Assembly: GCA_002170245.2 (NCBI GenBank)
Contig: NHFN02000019.1
Location: forward strand, 4,836-58,205
Origin: Gammaproteobacteria bacterium TMED112
GTDB taxonomy: Bacteria > Pseudomonadota > Gammaproteobacteria > Magnimaribacterales > TMED112
DNA: 53,370 bases
Direction of reading: 5' to 3'
This document shows, in pieces, positions 13,748-26,390 of the stretch. The translations under genes and the position numbers were made by a program. The notes beneath the pieces are model-generated. The model was given only the letters and a program-made list of their open reading frames with translations, was not told the origin of the DNA and did no database searches. Position 1 is the first letter of the stretch. Each line of letters opens with the position of its first letter.

Positions 13748-14251
13748 GTGAAAGAAATAATTAAAAATTACAGCGATATCTTCATTACATTAAGTGCTGC
13801 CATCGTAATGTGTGGACAATATTATCTTGAAAATATTGTTGGTCTTGAACCTTGTAACTTATGTATTTTGCAAAAACTCTCAGCGCAAGCAATATTTTTT
13901 ATATTTCTATTAAAAACGATAGTGCGTAAATTCAATATCATTTTTGATTTTCTAGGTTTAGGGGTTTTAATTTTTGGTGCATCTGCCAGTGGAAGACAAA
14001 TTTATCTTCAAAATTTACCAGCTAGTCAACTAACAGGAGGATATTGTGATATACCGTTTGAGTTTTTATTTAATATGTATCCTTTCTTTGATGCGCTTGG
14101 AAAAGTTTTTCAAGGAAGCAGCAAGTGTGCAGAGGAATCTTGGGTTTTCTTATATCTGAATATACCTGAATGGGCGCTCTTATTTTTTACTTCAATGATA
14201 TTGTTATTATTGGTAAGATACTTTTTAGTATATTTTAAGGGCCAAAAATAA
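13748..14251 (+). CDS. dsbB: Disulfide bond formation protein DsbB
   Basis: Inner-membrane quinone reductase that re-oxidises DsbA. The 167 residues show four hydrophobic segments (about 10-27, 42-60, 65-82 and 142-162). The first periplasmic cysteine pair is C36-C39 in PCNLCILQ, and the second is C100 and C127 in the long loop, as in E. coli DsbB. The start is GTG at 13748. It lies immediately ahead of pckA (3 nt gap), possibly in one transcript. Confidence 0.9.
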   Translation: MKEIIKNYSDIFITLSAAIVMCGQYYLENIVGLEPCNLCILQKLSAQAIFFIFLLKTIVRKFNIIFDFLGLGVLIFGASASGRQIYLQNLPASQLTGGYCDIPFEFLFNMYPFFDALGKVFQGSSKCAEESWVFLYLNIPEWALLFFTSMILLLLVRYFLVYFKGQK

Positions 14252-18271: not shown

Positions 18272-18895
18272 TTATTGAGAGACAAGTAAAGATTTAATTA
18301 CAAGAGACATGGAAGAGCTATTGAATGGTGCCTTAAATATTCCAATAACTTCTGCTTTTGAATTAACAACTATCAGGTGATTGGTGTGAGATATTATCCT
18401 TTGATTCATATGGTTTTCCATGGGGGCTAATTTTTCAACACCGAGCTGATAACCGAGCTTCACAACTTCAGGCATTTCACCAGACACGCCTATGAAATCT
18501 TCGTCAAAGGCTGTTACATAACTTTTTAATCTTTCTAGAGTATCAATTTGAGGATCAAAGCTTATTAAATAATATGAAATATCATCTGTCTCAATTTTTT
18601 CAAAAATCTGTCGCATCACAGACATCATTACTGGACACTCTGTGGGGCAACTGGAGTAACCAAAATAAAGAAAATTAAGGCTTTGTTTTTTAAGAATCTC
18701 TTTTGTGAAAATATCTCCGTTATGATCAATTAGATTAAAATCCCTCAGCTCCTGAAAGCTTCCATAGCCATAATAACCGTTTACTTTCATTTCTTCAGGA
18801 GAAAGAATTCTTGGCTGACTTATTCTCCAAACAGAATAAAATAAAAGGAATAAGACTACAGAAAATAGTATAAAAGTTAGTAAATTTTTAGACAT
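18272..18895 (-). CDS. SCO1/SenC copper chaperone for cytochrome oxidase
   Basis: A 207-residue membrane-anchored thioredoxin-like protein: one hydrophobic anchor at 6-22, the copper-binding CPTEC (C83 and C87) and a histidine ligand in ISHTNH (H170 or H173). SCO proteins mature the CuA centre of cytochrome oxidase subunit II. It is the last gene of the SURF1-to-SCO operon and overlaps ctaB by 8 nt. In Pseudomonas a senC gene ends the same cluster. Confidence 0.9.
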   Translation of the reverse strand: MSKNLLTFILFSVVLFLLFYSVWRISQPRILSPEEMKVNGYYGYGSFQELRDFNLIDHNGDIFTKEILKKQSLNFLYFGYSSCPTECPVMMSVMRQIFEKIETDDISYYLISFDPQIDTLERLKSYVTAFDEDFIGVSGEMPEVVKLGYQLGVEKLAPMENHMNQRIISHTNHLIVVNSKAEVIGIFKAPFNSSSMSLVIKSLLVSQ

Positions 18896-19748
18896 AGAGC
18901 ATTATTAAGAAATCTATGTAAGTTGCCAAGAAGAAAAGAAGCATATATCTTACGGAAAAATTAAAAATCTTCATAGAAAGTTGATTGTTTTCATCATTTA
19001 GATATTCAATACACAGATATATAAAGTAAAAATTTAAAGCTGTGGTAGAGATTAGATAGAAATACCCTGTTAAGCCATAAAAAAATGGTGCCAAAGAGGC
19101 TCCTAATAGCAATACTGCATAAATAATCATTTCTTTTTTTGTTCTTGAAACACCTTTTGCAATAGGCATCATTGGTACCCCCTCTTTTTTGTATTCATCC
19201 ATTCTATCAATTGCTAGAGGCCAAAAGTGTGGCGGGGTCCACAGGAAAATTATTAATACCAAGATTAGTGGTAACAGTGATATTTCATTAGTTACAGCAG
19301 TCCATCCTATTAATGGTGGAAGTGCTCCTGATAGCCCACCAATAACGATATTTTGTGGTGTAGACCACTTTAAATATATTGTATAAACCAGGCTGTAAAA
19401 AATAAATCCAAATGTGGTGATGAAAAGAGTTAAAAGGTTTGAGAAATACAGTAACAAACTAGAACCAATGAATAATAAGATAGCTGTGAAGGTTAAGGCT
19501 TGTGACAACGTGATATCCCCTGTGGCAAGTGGCCTTTTTTTTGTTCTCTCCATATTCTTGTCAGACTCTCTATCAAATATTTGATTTAACGAAGCAGAAG
19601 AAGCAGCTAAAAGAGCAAAACCAAGCAAACTTGCAAGGCTTGAAAAAATATTCGAATAAAACTCAATTGTTAAAAGCATGCCAACAAGTGCTGTAAGTGT
19701 TAAAAGTAGAACAATTTTTGGCTTACATAGATTTAAGAAACTTGCCAT
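18888..19748 (-). CDS. ctaB: Protoheme IX farnesyltransferase (heme O synthase)
   Basis: Adds a farnesyl group to heme B to make heme O, the precursor of heme A. This 286-residue UbiA-family membrane protein has about eight or nine hydrophobic segments; the prenyl-diphosphate motif is NQIFDRESD with ERTKKRPLATG, and the second Asp-rich loop is DRMDEYKKEG. It sits between ctaA (4 nt gap) and SCO (8 nt overlap). The symbol cyoE is used in other genomes. Confidence 0.95.
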   Translation of the reverse strand: MASFLNLCKPKIVLLLTLTALVGMLLTIEFYSNIFSSLASLLGFALLAASSASLNQIFDRESDKNMERTKKRPLATGDITLSQALTFTAILLFIGSSLLLYFSNLLTLFITTFGFIFYSLVYTIYLKWSTPQNIVIGGLSGALPPLIGWTAVTNEISLLPLILVLIIFLWTPPHFWPLAIDRMDEYKKEGVPMMPIAKGVSRTKKEMIIYAVLLLGASLAPFFYGLTGYFYLISTTALNFYFIYLCIEYLNDENNQLSMKIFNFSVRYMLLFFLATYIDFLIMLYV

Positions 19749-19752
19749 AAGA

Positions 19753-20724
19753 TTAAGCTCTCCTGAACGCTAGGAAAGTCATAACAACAAAAGACAAAAA
19801 CAACATCACACCTACTATATTGTGCGCAACTGCATTCCACAATGGAAGGGAGCTCAGAATATTATTAACTCCTAAAAAGATCTGAATACCTAATATGGAT
19901 AAAAAACCTATGACGATTAATTTAGACTCATTTGACCAAAGCTTAGCTGCCAGAAAGATAGAGTAGATAAAAACAATTATGGCTCCTATTCTATGTGTTA
20001 AGTGAATAGCTACTCGAGCCTCATTACTCATTTGCCCATATAGGTAATTTGGCCCAATTGACTGAAATAAATTGAAACCTTCTTCGAAGTTAGTATTTGG
20101 TATCAATTCTCCCTGGCAATATGGTAAGTCTAAACAAGCTCTTGCAGCATAATTTGTAGATGTCCAAGCGCCTAAGAAGATTTGAAAAACTATCAAGACA
20201 AATCCTATTAGAATATATGGTTTATTTCGAACTAATATTAGATATGAGTTAGTTATCTTTAAAGATTTCATGAAAATTATTAAAAATAATGAGGTAACTA
20301 TCATTGCCCCAAAAAGATGAGTGGTAACAATTAATGGATGTAACTTTAAGCTTACAGTTAAATATCCAAAAATACCTTGACCTATTATTATCAAGAGTAA
20401 TGCCAATGACTCTGTTTTCATTTTTTGTTTCGCGAATGCAATTGATACAAGCGCAATAGCTAAGAGGCCCAATGCTGCTGCAAAATATCTATGAACTACC
20501 TCAGGAATTATTTTATCGATCTCTACTGGTGAATTAGGATATAAGTTTTCAGCTATCGCTATCTCATCTGGAGTTGTTGGAAAAGTGACAAAGCCATAAC
20601 ACCCTGGCCAATCAGGACAACCGAGCCCTGCATCAGCCAATCTTGTCCAAGCGCCTAAGCCTATTACAATAAAACAAAACCCCACACCAATCGCTGCAAA
20701 TACTTTCGTGTTAAAAATATTCAT
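19753..20724 (-). CDS. ctaA: Heme A synthase (COX15/CtaA)
   Basis: Oxidises the heme O methyl group to the formyl of heme A. The 323-residue membrane protein has eight predicted helices, histidines expected to ligate heme (in EVVHRYFAA, THLFGA, THRIGA and AHNIVG), and extracytoplasmic cysteine pairs in GCPDWPGC and CLDLPYC. It starts inside the preceding gene with a 4-nt overlap. Its presence shows that the neighbouring oxidase uses heme A. Confidence 0.94.
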   Translation of the reverse strand: MNIFNTKVFAAIGVGFCFIVIGLGAWTRLADAGLGCPDWPGCYGFVTFPTTPDEIAIAENLYPNSPVEIDKIIPEVVHRYFAAALGLLAIALVSIAFAKQKMKTESLALLLIIIGQGIFGYLTVSLKLHPLIVTTHLFGAMIVTSLFLIIFMKSLKITNSYLILVRNKPYILIGFVLIVFQIFLGAWTSTNYAARACLDLPYCQGELIPNTNFEEGFNLFQSIGPNYLYGQMSNEARVAIHLTHRIGAIIVFIYSIFLAAKLWSNESKLIVIGFLSILGIQIFLGVNNILSSLPLWNAVAHNIVGVMLFLSFVVMTFLAFRRA

Positions 20725-21275
20725 AATATTTGTTTCACCTCCTCAAAAATTTCATTAAAAGTAAGGTCTGATTTAAACTCCCATATAAGAAGAGAAAAAG
20801 AATCCACTAAAAGCAACGAGTTTGATGTGTAAGGATCTTGAATCCTACCTTTAGTATGATTTTTAAATAAATCATCCTTATCGTATAAATAAATTACACC
20901 TGGAAAACTAGTTCTTAACTCTTTAGCACTCTCAAACTTATCTTTATCTTTGTAAACTACCATTCTTAATAATCTGTGTCCCTCCCTCCTTAGGGTTAGT
21001 TTTGAACTTCTAGCAACATCATATATATCCTTACTCAATTCAAGATTATTAAAATTATCAAAATACACAAAGTAGAATTTTCCTGGAGTAAATTGAAATT
21101 TATCTCCATCTTCTCTAATCAAATTGATATCTGTAATTTCAATCTTTGGTTCAATGGGAATCCCTTTGGTATAGATTTCAGGTTTATAGCCTAAGAAATA
21201 TGTGAGTGTTGATGTAGTTAATGTCAAAAGAGGGATTAACAAAATTATGAGCGCTAGTCTGTATTGTCTATCCAT
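20721..21275 (-). CDS. Uncharacterised membrane-anchored protein of the cox cluster (PA0111 position)
   Basis: I cannot assign a biochemical function. The 184 residues start with one transmembrane anchor (about 7-28), and the rest is likely periplasmic: a stretch KFYFVYFDN resembling the beta strand that starts thioredoxin-like SCO folds, then a segment with GVIYLYDKDD and a C-terminal half ending in LLVDSFSLLIWEF. It has no CxxxC pair. It overlaps SURF1 by 8 nt and ctaA by 4 nt. Pseudomonas has an unnamed gene at the same place between SURF1 and COX15. I infer a role in oxidase or heme A assembly. Confidence 0.7.
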   Translation of the reverse strand: MDRQYRLALIILLIPLLTLTTSTLTYFLGYKPEIYTKGIPIEPKIEITDINLIREDGDKFQFTPGKFYFVYFDNFNNLELSKDIYDVARSSKLTLRREGHRLLRMVVYKDKDKFESAKELRTSFPGVIYLYDKDDLFKNHTKGRIQDPYTSNSLLLVDSFSLLIWEFKSDLTFNEIFEEVKQIL

Positions 21276-21957
21276 CTTTTCTCCTATATGCGTAAACGGT
21301 CAATATTATTAGGGCCGCACACAAACCAAACCATTGTATGGCATATCCTATATGTTTGCTTGCAGACATATTTACAGGCTTTTCAATTAAATCTAGTTTT
21401 TCTTCTTGCCTTACACCCAAATTAAATAAAAAATTATGTAAATATATATCCTTTTTAAAATTAAATTTATCAGAGATATATCTTGAGTCGAATTCCTGAA
21501 TAATTCTGATGTCAGATTCTTCAATATTTTTTACAAAAGAATTATTCTCTTTTTTAAGGACAGTCCCCTCAAGTTCTCTCTTATCTTTTGGCACAATAAT
21601 GCTTGGAAGATCATTTTTAATCATGTTCCTCGGAACAAAACCTCGATGCACAAAAATTAATGACCCATCAGCGACTTCAAACAAATGATAAATTTTAAAA
21701 CCAGCCTTACCTTTTAATATTGCGTTGTCTTCATATATTACAAGGTCTTTGAAGCTTCCTGACATTTTTATGGGCTGCCAGTTTTTGTAAGTTTTGCTTT
21801 GCTCAAGATTAATTGACGGTCTTGATAGCAGTTCGTCATAATTGGCGATAATTATGTTTTTTTCTTCTGCTCTTTGTATTTGCCAGAAACCAAGACTAAT
21901 TGTTATAGGAGCAAAAATAATTGCAAAAATTAATATCTTTGATTTAAAGCTATTCAA
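21268..21957 (-). CDS. SURF1 family cytochrome oxidase assembly protein
   Basis: Assembly factor thought to help heme A insertion into subunit I. The 229 residues show the SURF1 layout: an N-terminal helix (8-25) followed by LGFWQIQRAEEK, a periplasmic domain with VHRGFVPRN, and a C-terminal helix preceded by KHIGYAIQWFGL. The start is a TTG at 21957. The divergent DUF2909 gene begins only 15 nt away, so both promoters must lie in or overlap the coding sequences. Confidence 0.9.
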   Translation of the reverse strand: MNSFKSKILIFAIIFAPITISLGFWQIQRAEEKNIIIANYDELLSRPSINLEQSKTYKNWQPIKMSGSFKDLVIYEDNAILKGKAGFKIYHLFEVADGSLIFVHRGFVPRNMIKNDLPSIIVPKDKRELEGTVLKKENNSFVKNIEESDIRIIQEFDSRYISDKFNFKKDIYLHNFLFNLGVRQEEKLDLIEKPVNMSASKHIGYAIQWFGLCAALIILTVYAYRRKDG

Positions 21958-21972
21958 TGTTTTAATATCTCC

Positions 21973-22185
21973 GTGTTAAAAACTATCGTATTTATTTTAC
22001 TTATATTGGTTTTAATAAGCTTGGCGTCAAGCTTAGTATTTCTTTTCATTGATAGGGGTAAACCAAACAGAAAGCGCATCATGTATGGATTAGGTTTTAG
22101 AGTTACTCTCGGTGCAATTTTAATTATTCTCATAGTTTATGGCATAGCAACAGGGCAACTTGGCAACCAAGCGCCCTGGGGTTAA
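21973..22185 (+). CDS. DUF2909-like twin-transmembrane protein
   Basis: A 70-residue protein with two hydrophobic segments (2-24 and 42-62) separated by a basic loop containing DRGKPNRKRIMYGLGFRV. This matches the small DUF2909 family found between coxIII and SURF1 in many gammaproteobacteria; its function is unknown. The start is GTG. It is the only plus-strand gene within the oxidase region, and its stop codon interlocks with that of coxC (TTAA at 22182-22185). Confidence 0.8.
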   Translation: MLKTIVFILLILVLISLASSLVFLFIDRGKPNRKRIMYGLGFRVTLGAILIILIVYGIATGQLGNQAPWG

Positions 22186-23108
22186 AGGATATAGACAAAC
22201 AGAAATAAACAAACCCAAACTACATCTACGAAATGCCAGTACCAAGATGCTGCTTCAAAACCAAAATGTTCTTTATCAGTGAAATGGTTAAAACCAGCGG
22301 ATCTCGCGAGTTGTGTTGCAAGAAAAATTCCACCAATCAGAACGTGCATACCGTGGAATCCAGTAAGCATAAAAAATGTGGTTCCATATACGCCTGAGTT
22401 TAGTTGTAACCCTAAGTGAGCGTAAGCTTCATAATATTCAAGAGCTTGCAAAATAACAAAAATAAAGGCAAGAGACACAGTAATCGCTAACCAAAAATTA
22501 AATCTTTTTCTATTGTTGTCTTTAAGTGCCATATGGGCAAAGTGAACAGTGCCGCTAGATGTGAGAAGAACTATGGTGTTATAAAGTGGTAGCCACGTTC
22601 CAATATCTCGTAAACTATGAAGGTACATATTCTCTTCAGGTCCTTTTGTCAAAGCCTGATCACCCATCAAGCTTTGTTCTGGTGTGATCATTGGAGGCCA
22701 CGTTGCTTCAAATTCAGGCCAAAGCAGATCACCTGCTAAACCTTTTGCAGTTGCCCCTTCTCCACCAAGCCATGGTATAGAGAATGTTCTTATATAAAAT
22801 AACGCACCAAAAAAAGCGGCAAAGAACATGACTTCAGAGAAAATGAACCAGCCCATTCCATAAACATATGAGTTATTTAATTGAGGTGTATCTAGTCCAG
22901 CTAAAGATTCTCTTGTAACCACCGAAAACCAATATGCCATAGTGGCAATAACAGCGGCCACACCAAAAAAGAACATTGTTGTGCCTTTGCCCATTACTGC
23001 ATCAGCTGCCCCGACACCAAAAAAAAGCATTGCCACAGCGAAAACAATTGGTATGGAGCTTTTTTCAGGCACATAGTATTTTTGATGGCCTGTTGAATCA
23101 GTGCTCAT
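22182..23108 (-). CDS. coxC: Cytochrome c oxidase subunit III
   Basis: Core membrane subunit of the heme-copper oxidase. It has 308 residues and seven predicted helices, with family landmarks near the C-terminus: FFMLTGFHGMHVLIG and SWYWHFVDVVWVCLFLFVY. An extended loop around residues 100-150 (WPEFEATWPPMITPEQS) is typical of the proteobacterial type. It overlaps Cox11 by 11 nt at its start. Confidence 0.95.
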   Translation of the reverse strand: MSTDSTGHQKYYVPEKSSIPIVFAVAMLFFGVGAADAVMGKGTTMFFFGVAAVIATMAYWFSVVTRESLAGLDTPQLNNSYVYGMGWFIFSEVMFFAAFFGALFYIRTFSIPWLGGEGATAKGLAGDLLWPEFEATWPPMITPEQSLMGDQALTKGPEENMYLHSLRDIGTWLPLYNTIVLLTSSGTVHFAHMALKDNNRKRFNFWLAITVSLAFIFVILQALEYYEAYAHLGLQLNSGVYGTTFFMLTGFHGMHVLIGGIFLATQLARSAGFNHFTDKEHFGFEAASWYWHFVDVVWVCLFLFVYIL

Positions 23109-23652
23109 GATTTACTGCTAGTATTTCCTCTCTATCATTTTCAAACAAAGTATATGATAAATAGACGTTATTTACATTCTGACTAAGCTCTGAATCAACA
23201 TAAAACCTTACTGGCCACTCTTGTGTTTCATAGGGATCAAGTGTTTGTTCGCTGAAACAAAAACATTGAATTTTCTTTACGCTTTCAGCAGCTAGACCAG
23301 GGGAAACCGATGGAACTATAGATAGGGTTAATTTTTTGTTTGTGTTGTTAGTTGCGATATAAGAAGTTTTGCTGACTTTGTCCGTTAAGACCTCTAAATT
23401 TGTTTCTGATGGGTAAAAGGTGACAGGGGCTGAGCCATTAACGGTACTTAAAAATCTTATATTTACTTGTCTTTCATATGTTTCATTATTTTTTTTAAAG
23501 AAATCTGATGGTCCATATATTTTCCCATTCAAACCAGTTACTTCACAAAATACATTATAAAGCGGAACTAGCATGAACGAAAAAAAGAACATAAAGATGA
23601 CTGCACCAAGCAAAGATACAAAAACCTTGTTCTTTAAGGGTCCGTTACTCAT
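23098..23652 (-). CDS. ctaG: Cytochrome c oxidase assembly protein Cox11/CtaG
   Basis: Delivers copper to the CuB site of subunit I. The 184-residue protein has one N-terminal membrane anchor (about 9-31), a periplasmic immunoglobulin-like domain and the copper-binding CFCF motif in [16 protein letters not shown], followed by the conserved VRFYVD. It overlaps coxA by 4 nt and coxC by 11 nt; the order coxB-coxA-cox11-coxC is the standard operon. Confidence 0.94.
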
Positions 23653-25229
23653 TTAACCTTTGGTGGGACGTCAAATGTGTGATATGGGGCTGGCGAATCG
23701 ACCGTCCACTCAAGACCATCAGCACCATCCCAAACCTGTGGAGTAGCTTTTTTTCCAGCAAATACTGTTTTAACGACAATATACAAAAATAATAGTTGTG
23801 ATAAACCAAATAAAAATGCTCCTACTGAAGAAACAGCATTCCATTCAGCAAATTGCAAAGCATAGTCCGCATATCTCCGTGGCATGCCTGCAAGACCGAC
23901 AAAATGCTGAGGGAAAAATGTAATGTTTACGCCTATAAATGAAAGCCAGAAATGCATTTTACCCATCCTCTCGTCATACATGTTACCTGTCCATTTTGGC
24001 AACCAGTAATAGACTGCAGCCATTATGGAAAATACTGCACCAGGAACAAGAACGTAGTGAAAGTGAGCTACTACAAAATAAGTATCATGATATTGAAAAT
24101 CCGCTGGTGTAATAGCCAGCATTAATCCAGAAAAACCGCCAATTGTGAAGAGAACGACAAATGCTATTGCAAACAACATTGGTGTTTCATACGTAATAGA
24201 GCCTTTAAAAATTGTAGCGCACCAGTTGAAGACTTTTACCCCTGTTGGGATTGCTATGAGCATTGTTGCCCACATAAAAAATAATTCTGCAACAAGAGGC
24301 ATGCCAACTGTAAACATGTGGTGTGCCCAGACCACAAATGACAATACTGCAATAGAAACCATCGCATATACCATAGAAGCGTGACCAAATAATGGTTTTC
24401 TCGAAAAGGTCGAGATTATATGTGATGTAATACCAAATGCAGGCAGTATCATTATATAAACCTCTGGATGTCCAAAAAACCAGAAGACATGTTGAAATAA
24501 AACAGGATCTCCTCCGCCTGCAGCATCAAAAAATGATGTGCCAAAGTATGCATCCATTAATAGCATAGTAACTGCACCGGCTAAGACAGGCATAACTGCA
24601 ATGAGAAGATAAGCTGTAATTAACCACGACCAAACAAACAAAGGCATCTTCATTAATGTCATCCCTGGAGCTCTCATATTCATAATTGTGACTACCACAT
24701 TTATTGAGCCCATAATTGAAGAAGCACCCATAATATGAATAGCGAATACAAAGTAAGCTATGTTTGGATAATTGGTTGATAATGGTGCATAAAAAGTCCA
24801 ACCAAAACCTGGCATACCGCCCTCCATAAATGCTGTTGATAGCAAAATAGAAAAAGCAACTGGCAACAACCAGAAGCTTAGATTATTCATTCTAGGCATA
24901 GCCATGTCTGGAGCTCCAATCTGTAGGGGTATTAACCAGTTAGCAAGACCAACAAAGGCCGGCATCACGCCACCGAAAATCATAATTAAGCCATGCATGG
25001 TTACAAGCTGGTTATATCTTATAGGATCCATTAGCTGTAAGCCTGGCTCAAATAATTCCGCCCTTATACCCATAGCAAACGCTCCACCCAAAAGGAAAGC
25101 TGCAAAAGCAAACCACAAATATAATGTACCAATATCTTTATGGTTTGTTGTTGTTAACCAGCGCATGAAGCCTTTTTGCGGGCCATGATGGTCGTCATGA
25201 TGATTATTATTTTCAACTACTGCACTCAT
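23649..25229 (-). CDS. coxA: Cytochrome c oxidase subunit I
   Basis: Catalytic subunit containing heme a, heme a3 and CuB. The 526 residues show twelve predicted helices, the cross-linked His-Tyr motif in [12 protein letters not shown], the CuB histidine pair in WAHHMF and the heme ligands in HFHYVLV. HPEVY together with the D-channel region near NNLSFW places it with the A-type aa3 oxidases. It begins 9 nt after coxB. Confidence 0.97.
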
Positions 25230-25238
25230 GTTCTGCTC

Positions 25239-26390
25239 CTATAAATTTGTTTCCTTGTATTCAACTATGTCTTTTGGAATAACAATCTCTCCATCTCCTG
25301 ATCTCTCATTACCCCAAGCTAGTCTAGTAAAAGTTATAACTGAAGCCATCTCTACCTCATTTAGTTGCTCGGCAAATGACTGCATTTGGCTTCCTCTTAT
25401 TCCTTCCATTAAAATTTCTATTTGTTTAGCTTTGTTATTCATTACCACGTCACTACCTGCAAGGGCTGGATAGAAACCAGCAATACCAGCTCCGTTTGTT
25501 TGATGACATGCAGCACATCTAGTCTCATAGATTTCTTCACCTGTTGCAAGCAACTCGTCTGATGACCATTCTTTTTCAGTTAAATATGCAATTTGTTCAA
25601 TAATCTCTCTTTTTGATTGCAGCCATTCTTCATACTCTTCTTGAGTAACTGCCTTAACCACGATAGGCATATATGCGTGTCTTTCGCCACAAAGCTCAGT
25701 GCAGTTGCCTCTATATATTCCGGGAACATTTACCTTCGTCTTAGCAACATTTATAAAGCCTGGTATTGCATCTTGTTTTACTGCAAAGTCACTCATGTAC
25801 CAAGAATGAATTACGTCATTGCTTGTAATTAAAAAACGTACTGGAGTATCTACTGGTATTACTACCGGCTCATCGACTTCTAACAAATAATTCTCATTTT
25901 TTTCAACCCTATTAAATTCGTATTGGTCTGGAGGGGTGGTCAGATTAGAGAAAAAACTCAATGGTTTATTTCCAACTTGTTCGTCAAGGTATTTGTATTG
26001 CCATTTCCATTGCCACCCAACAACCTGTATGTCAATACCGCCTTCCTCAGACTCGTGATCGTATATTTTCTTTAAAGTAATAGAAGCTGGAACAGCCATC
26101 GCTATTAAAATAAGTGTAGGAACAATTGTCCAAAGCATTTCGACTGTGTGGTTTTCTGTGAAGGTTGCAGGCTTTTTGTTGTTCGATCTTCTATATTTCC
26201 ACATGGACCAAAAGAGAATCCCAAAAACTACAACCCCAATAGCTACAACAACAAAAAATATTGTCATGTGCAGTCCAAAAACTTCTTTACTTATATCGGT
26301 TACACCAACAGGCATATTAATGTCTAACCAATCGGCAGACATAAAAAGTGATAAGGGGTAGAGAATAAGTGCCCAGAGCTTGTTCTTCAT
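25239..26390 (-). CDS. coxB: Cytochrome c oxidase subunit II with fused cytochrome c domain
   Basis: Electron-entry subunit, 383 residues. It has an N-terminal hydrophobic leader (4-18), two membrane helices (about 40-63 and 84-104), and a cupredoxin domain with the CuA ligands H195, C230, E232, C234, H238 and M241. A C-terminal extension from about 275 carries a class I cytochrome c with CAACH (292-296), as in caa3-type enzymes. This fused heme can accept electrons from soluble cytochromes such as the c5 encoded at 9430. It is the first gene of the cox operon. Confidence 0.96.
   Translation of the reverse strand: MKNKLWALILYPLSLFMSADWLDINMPVGVTDISKEVFGLHMTIFFVVVAIGVVVFGILFWSMWKYRRSNNKKPATFTENHTVEMLWTIVPTLILIAMAVPASITLKKIYDHESEEGGIDIQVVGWQWKWQYKYLDEQVGNKPLSFFSNLTTPPDQYEFNRVEKNENYLLEVDEPVVIPVDTPVRFLITSNDVIHSWYMSDFAVKQDAIPGFINVAKTKVNVPGIYRGNCTELCGERHAYMPIVVKAVTQEEYEEWLQSKREIIEQIAYLTEKEWSSDELLATGEEIYETRCAACHQTNGAGIAGFYPALAGSDVVMNNKAKQIEILMEGIRGSQMQSFAEQLNEVEMASVITFTRLAWGNERSGDGEIVIPKDIVEYKETNL

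Follow-up and report, generated by a model that had tools for sequence, protein, structure and literature searches.

A cysteine-less Sco-like protein encoded beside SURF1 in a gammaproteobacterial cytochrome c oxidase operon

The oxidase operon and its PA0111-type gene

The window analyzed here is a 53,370-nucleotide stretch of the genome (1.02 Mb in 20 contigs) of Gammaproteobacteria bacterium TMED112, probably a SAR86-type marine bacterium, and it carries on its minus strand a cytochrome c oxidase operon in the order coxB, coxA, ctaG, cox3, SURF1, X, ctaA, cyoE and SCO (Table 1), where X denotes the gene of interest and its product. The X reading frame starts with an ATG, encodes a protein without a cysteine anywhere in its 184 residues, and overlaps both of its neighbors: its start shares 8 nt with the end of SURF1 (21268-21275) and its stop shares 4 nt with the start of ctaA (20721-20724). 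The 184-residue gene overlapping SURF1 and ctaA that a preliminary description of this DNA had reported is thus confirmed, and the membrane anchor that it assigned to the product is found in an AlphaFold2 model as one N-terminal helix. Because homologs are present in 58 of the 61 genomes of the window's order and are under purifying selection, we regard X as a real gene and not a chance reading frame.

Table 1. Genes and features of the oxidase operon (positions in the window)
Feature	Position	Strand	Evidence
SCO (SenC-type copper chaperone), unusual active-site loop CPTEC	18272..18895	-	PF02630, E 5.8e-26
cyoE/ctaB, heme O synthase (UbiA family)	18888..19748	-	PF01040
ctaA (heme A synthase with both loop cysteine pairs)	19753..20724	-	PF02628, E 1.5e-62
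X, Sco-like protein of 184 aa with a membrane anchor and no cysteine (homolog of the PA0111 family)	20721..21275	-	ORF, profiles, AlphaFold2, structure comparison
Lost-CxxxC positions of X, residues 77-81 (Asn77 to Ser81)	21033..21047	-	Columns 129 and 136 of the alignment
N-terminal membrane helix of X (predicted), residues 3-27	21195..21269	-	AlphaFold2 secondary structure
SURF1, constant upstream neighbor of X	21268..21957	-	PF02104, E 1.6e-28
cox3, oxidase subunit III	22182..23108	-	PF00510
ctaG/cox11	23098..23652	-	PF04442
coxA, oxidase subunit I	23649..25229	-	Position and sequence, no library scan
coxB, subunit II, CuA motif and C-terminal cytochrome c domain	25239..26390	-	PF00116, PF13442; CTELCGERHAYM read directly

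The C-terminal cytochrome c domain of subunit II identifies the enzyme as a caa3-type oxidase. Between SURF1 and cox3 the opposite strand encodes a 70-aa DUF2909 protein (21973-22185, plus strand; PF11137, E 2e-14). Close by, but outside the operon region, are a DsbB gene (13748-14251, plus strand; PF02600) and, after it, genes for PEP carboxykinase and glutamate-cysteine ligase.

X of the window has no Pfam or NCBIfam match of its own, and its family is reached through profile comparisons. The NCBIfam model NF058629 (PA0111_fam), described as "PA_0111/PP_0108 family redox-active disulfide protein", has a curated cut-off of 230 bits and matches all 63 named relatives of X (best E 1.3e-27; one displayed score, 67 bits, is below the cut-off). 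It matches 15 of 18 proteins of the window's order (best 1e-23) and 106 of 185 class genomes, only one of which, G204, exceeds the cut-off; the window's X is absent from its matches at E 10 and so falls short of that cut-off. The G204 member (296.7 bits, C3:53070-53609) sits between SURF1 (C3:52370-52972) and CtaA (C3:53672-54610). A profile of 18 X proteins of the window's order, A1, aligns with the wider-family profile A5 at E 2e-37 (hhalign), and A5 finds the window's X at 7.4e-11. The NF058629 family and the window's X are alike in profile homology as well as in size, membrane anchor and the slot after SURF1, but the family is characterized by a CxxxC presumed to be redox-active, in place of which the window has Asn77 and Ser81. 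The motif is found at none of the 32 loci of the window's clade, which comprises f1 (with the window) and f3 among the four families, f1 to f4, of the order.

We take PA0110 of Pseudomonas to be SURF1. One study places PA0110 directly upstream of PA0111 and gives PA0112 as a predicted heme A synthase (PMC13128677), an arrangement with which the G204 locus agrees, and the claim that the same position is occupied in Pseudomonas holds. Transcription of PA0111 is reported to increase in biofilm dispersal (PMC13128677) and upon exposure to an NO donor (PMC13024080), and to be reduced when VirB4 is mutated (PMC10413270). Our search of the literature, with subscription papers outside its scope, found no functional study of PA0111 or its family, nor did we meet there the cysteine-less variant, the SURF1-bound distribution or the altered Sco loop described below. 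The idea of an unrecognized factor survives in part: X is an uncharacterized candidate assembly factor in a conserved oxidase-operon slot, but its family has already been named by NF058629.

SURF1 and heme A synthase as neighbors of X

X is retained in all 34 genomes of the window's order with a completeness of 90% or more and a contamination of no more than 5%. In the class, the A1 profile matches 143 of 276 genomes at E 1e-3 (the weakest matches only partly read), SURF1 (PF02104) is present in 165 and CtaA (PF02628) in 174. SURF1 occurs in all 143 genomes with X and CtaA in 140 of them; X is missing from all 111 genomes that lack SURF1, occurs in none of the 13 that have CtaA but no SURF1, and is present in three of the four (drafts) that have SURF1 but no CtaA match, counts that are not independent trials because the genomes are related. 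SURF1 is present but A1 finds no match in 22 genomes; 14 of these were read, and 11 of the 14 contain a divergent X; we saw none at the SURF1 locus of G093 or G247 or at one of the two SURF1 loci of G070, and the SURF1 locus of G321 ran off its contig. Among the remaining eight, NF058629 matches G071, G162 and G206, the last two weakly.

Gene order was compared over 156 distinct X loci (58 from the order and 98 from the class outside it, with three repeat fetches dropped). SURF1 stands directly before X in 152 of these, its stop at most 170 nt ahead of the matched part of X, and the next recognized gene after X is CtaA at 116 loci, CyoE at 31 and SCO at two, with none at seven. At two of the CtaA loci, L118 and L138, about 1 kb separates X from CtaA. 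Named loci were represented by the best 80 of at least 583, which were chosen by similarity to cysteine-bearing members and are no unbiased sample; they include Herbaspirillum, Noviherbaspirillum, Undibacterium, Massilia, Aromatoleum and Thiohalobacter. SURF1 precedes X in 79 of these 80, CtaA (55) or CyoE (24) follows, and all 80 of the similarity-chosen loci carry CxxxC.

X is likely confined to the Gammaproteobacteria, to judge from 16 of the strongest out-of-class loci. In a draw across the phylum 112 of 249 genomes matched at 1e-7, with a best value of 4.5e-17 outside the class versus 7.2e-72 inside it. The 16 out-of-class loci that were read, which come from 15 genomes and are among the strongest though not strictly the top 16, all score far better as SCO and carry CPD[VI]CP, and we rejected them as X. 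CxxxC is present at 27 of 30 loci from the phylum draw. Three loci, L280, L281 and L287, have a wider-spaced cysteine pair in its place.

A role in heme A delivery had been suggested for X, and it could take the form of a service to CtaA, in which the CxxxC of X keeps the redox state of the CtaA loop cysteines or X passes heme A to SURF1. The position of CtaA as the next recognized gene at 116 of 156 loci, its overlap with X in the window and its presence in nearly all genomes with X are what such a role would lead one to expect. Where CtaA adjoins X, both loop cysteine pairs are present in 116 of 116 sequences, bar three gapped or masked cells, and the cysteine-less clade is no exception, its CtaA having kept all four loop cysteines in 32 rows, with a single residue masked. 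From the 31 genomes with the order SURF1-X-CyoE, 20 were chosen for a high-scoring unlinked CtaA (PF02628), and not one of these 20 proteins has the C-x5-C loop pair while X in the same genomes has CxxxC; two of these genomes, G072 and G259, have a second PF02628 match, and the reading covered one match in each. Given these 20 proteins on one side and the cysteine-less clade on the other, the cysteines of X and of CtaA come and go independently in the sequences read. Since X also stays beside SURF1 where CtaA is elsewhere, the link to heme A synthase is weak, and with X missing from every genome that has CtaA without SURF1 we consider a service to CtaA quite unlikely. The lasting link of X is to SURF1 and not to heme A synthase, because SURF1 is upstream at almost every locus, CtaA varies, and the cysteines of X and CtaA are uncoupled in the proteins read. 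The adjacency to SURF1 could be inherited operon order.

In the 20 chosen genomes (L290-L309), the unlinked CtaA scores much higher on PF02628 and is without the loop pairs, as if the operon CtaA had been replaced by another CtaA type. Some of the other 11 SURF1-X-CyoE genomes have an ordinary-scoring CtaA elsewhere (e.g. G159, G235, G323), and SURF1-X-CyoE genomes G288 and G320 give no PF02628 match.

Kinship with Sco and loss of the CxxxC motif

Profiles built from X only and SCO only align at E 1.3e-17 in a single hhalign comparison, with their cysteines in register, and iterated X and SCO profiles recruit each other, a type of iteration in which drift is possible. A profile of the 63 named relatives aligns with Bradyrhizobium ScoI at E 7.4e-13, and 49 of the 63 match Pfam SCO1-SenC. 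In a tree of the ORFs from fetched loci, 159 X and 36 SCO sequences fall on separate branches with support 1.0. These sequence comparisons show X and SCO to be homologous.

The predicted structure agrees with a fold of the Sco type. An AlphaFold2 model of the window's X has a thioredoxin-type domain after the anchor (mean pLDDT 86.6, pTM 0.74), and a model of the cysteine-bearing relative L239 reaches a pLDDT of 91.5. Comparison with SCO folds had been proposed as a check on the preliminary description, and Sco structures head the matches to the window model both in Foldseek (4bpy at 6.4e-6, then 6n5u and 4wbj) and in VIA-align, where the best row has a Z of 13.6 over 146 residues at an rmsd of 3.3 (2k6v 13.6, 4bpy 13.3, 2b7k 12.9). 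The margin over other proteins is small for the window, since thioredoxin-like 8t4c reaches a Z of 12.6 and proteins of this kind outrank some of the Sco rows; for L239, 2b7k scores 16.0 against a best non-Sco value of 14.1. The anticipated thioredoxin-like fold without copper cysteines is thus borne out in the model, as a Sco-like one. With Sco/SenC proteins (PF02630; ScoI 4wbj, yeast Sco1 2b7k), X shares this fold and a single membrane anchor, both predicted, and the CxxxC of its family aligns with that of Sco. The oxidoreductases TlpA, ResA and CcmG likewise have a membrane-anchored thioredoxin fold; their active site is CxxC, whereas relatives of X have CxxxC and the window's X no cysteine, and the best Sco rows outscore these types, for the window by about one Z unit or less, with some Sco rows lower.

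Absence of the copper cysteines is true of the window's X but is a derived trait of its clade and does not describe the family, in which CxxxC is found at 123 of 156 loci. Outside the order, 97 of 98 class loci have the motif, as do all 13 loci of f2 and all 13 of f4; it is absent from all 19 of f1 and all 13 of f3. In a tree of SURF1 and CtaA (57 of the 58 order loci plus 13 outgroups) f1 and f3 are united with a UFBoot of 100, so a single loss of the cysteines accounts for the window's clade. A second, separate loss is seen at the G064 locus and in G587, the other genome examined of its family.

One might suppose that X in the window's clade is a decaying, useless remnant, for it has lost both cysteines and its C-terminal tail. 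For cysteine-less X, all 13 pairs compared give a dN/dS of 0.04-0.14, similar to the 0.03-0.12 of cysteine-bearing X (seven computable of nine pairs) and no higher than the 0.04-0.29 of SURF1; dS is saturated in several of the pairs, and certain sequences enter more than one pair. These values, along with the retention of X in all of the more complete genomes of the order, make decay very improbable, and the substitution pattern shows cysteine-less X to be under purifying selection. Residues kept after the loss include Pro15 and Gly38 (32/32 each), Arg or Lys at 101 (32), Asp158 (31), Trp67 (28; Phe in the window) and Asp179 (28; Glu in the window).

Three candidate correlates of the cysteine loss were rejected. 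Coupling of an SRIG-like C-terminal tail to the cysteines is not general: cysteine-less G064 retains the tail, and the tail pattern is unmatched at 38 of 98 class loci, cysteine-bearing or not, many of which miss it by one residue. A shortage of reductant was discarded as a cause with DsbD-type proteins present in all four families (55 of 61 order genomes). PCuAC does not track the cysteines, since it is found in 12 of 14 f2 genomes and in none of the 47 of f1, f3 and f4.

The same data bear on two further explanations of what X does. It might itself deliver copper to CuA or CuB as an independent chaperone that uses the two cysteines only, as its Sco superfamily membership, the CxxxC of most loci and the placement in an operon for a copper-site enzyme would allow. 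Sco proteins have a CxxxC...H copper motif, however, and no distal copper-binding histidine is conserved in the X family: the commonest histidine column is filled at 40 of 156 loci, and the copper histidine of ScoI is without a counterpart in the alignment with the relatives profile. A true Sco is already encoded in the window's operon, and cysteine-less versions persist under selection. An independent chaperone function is accordingly unlikely in general, and the earlier suggestion of copper delivery is unlikely for the window's X, which has neither cysteine nor conserved distal histidine. Alternatively, SURF1 may be the sole partner of X, which would then be a structural component of the subunit I/SURF1 assembly intermediate and whose cysteines would be incidental in all species. 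Such a role would account for its co-occurrence with SURF1 and for its survival of cysteine loss on two occasions; it is hard to square with the presence of both cysteines at all 123 loci outside the two cysteine-less lineages, and we regard it as fairly unlikely.

The Sco loop and a possible role beside SURF1 and Sco

The active-site loop of Sco is altered where X has no cysteines. It reads CPxEC at all 32 loci of the cysteine-less clade, at none of the 25 of f2 and f4, and in none of 85 other SCO ORFs, whether operon-linked or not, and the conserved Tyr and Asp that precede the copper histidine in the YxxDH of Sco are also replaced in the clade. When each X is matched to the Sco encoded in its own operon (three repeats dropped), the canonical CPDxC is found at 61 of 65 loci with a cysteine-bearing X versus none of 34 with a cysteine-less one, where the loops are CPxEC (32) or CA[MS]LC (2). 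Independence cannot be claimed for the 65 comparison loci (25 from the window's order, 30 similarity-chosen named loci and 10 others), CPDxC occurs at only six of the 10 others, and the covariation rests on two cysteine-loss events. The Sco loop is altered despite CxxxC in X at L044 and L179 (both G087), L049 (G320) and L150 (G148). In the sequences compared, then, CPxEC is peculiar to the window's clade, but an altered loop as such is not. In the SCO of the window the loop is CPTEC, and among 142 distinct SCO ORFs a Glu at this place was seen only in the window's clade.

By count, the changes in Sco do not stand out, since SURF1 has changed as many conserved columns, and only the place of the Sco changes is telling. 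In the clade two of 21 conserved columns changed in SCO, two of 21 in SURF1 and one of 64 in CtaA; against a yardstick from outside the order, f1 and f3 changed two of 23, two of 23 and five of 66, respectively, and f2 and f4 changed one, none and five columns. Sco often lies outside the operon: of 13 additional class regions retrieved to look for it, 12 had no recognized Sco beside the operon. The parallel between cysteine loss in X and the altered Sco loop is suggestive and falls short of proof.

Our preferred reading, to which we would give roughly an even chance, is that X is an oxidase accessory factor that cooperates with SURF1 and Sco; in most bacteria it would have redox or copper activity, and here it would be a non-catalytic holdover. 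X would be a Sco paralog with a one-helix membrane anchor that works next to SURF1 in cytochrome c oxidase assembly, sitting in the SURF1 complex and touching both SURF1 and Sco. In most Gammaproteobacteria its CxxxC, which comes without a copper histidine, would most likely exchange thiols or pass copper with Sco while the copper sites are assembled, in a manner analogous to TlpA with ScoI or human SCO2 with SCO1. Human SCO2 keeps its copper ligands and is comparable to X as a Sco paralog, with no direct kinship claimed. SCO2 is reported as a possible thiol-disulfide oxidoreductase for SCO1 (PMC5249081), and a reference title within PMC9145763 states that TlpA reduces ScoI and subunit II. In the window's clade, CxxxC was lost once, the Sco loop changed on the same branch, and X was kept, perhaps as a non-catalytic docking or scaffold subunit.

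A more specific and rather doubtful version of this proposal makes X a dedicated Sco partner that bridges Sco to SURF1 and coordinates copper loading with heme a insertion; when X loses its redox or metal site, the active site of Sco would be rewired, CPDxC giving way to CPxEC or CAxLC, so that X is no longer needed there. If true, it would describe a three-protein SURF1-X-Sco assembly module, such as we did not meet in the literature searched. X is a widespread, named but unstudied Sco-like protein, found in our samples only together with SURF1 and, where its cysteines are lost, accompanied by an altered Sco active site, and it offers a genetically easy entry to oxidase assembly in which natural cysteine-less variants can serve as controls. 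The CuA motif, which would be the target site, is intact in the window's subunit II and in all 30 others that were read out of 58 found (one from f1, seven from f2, nine from f3 and 13 from f4).
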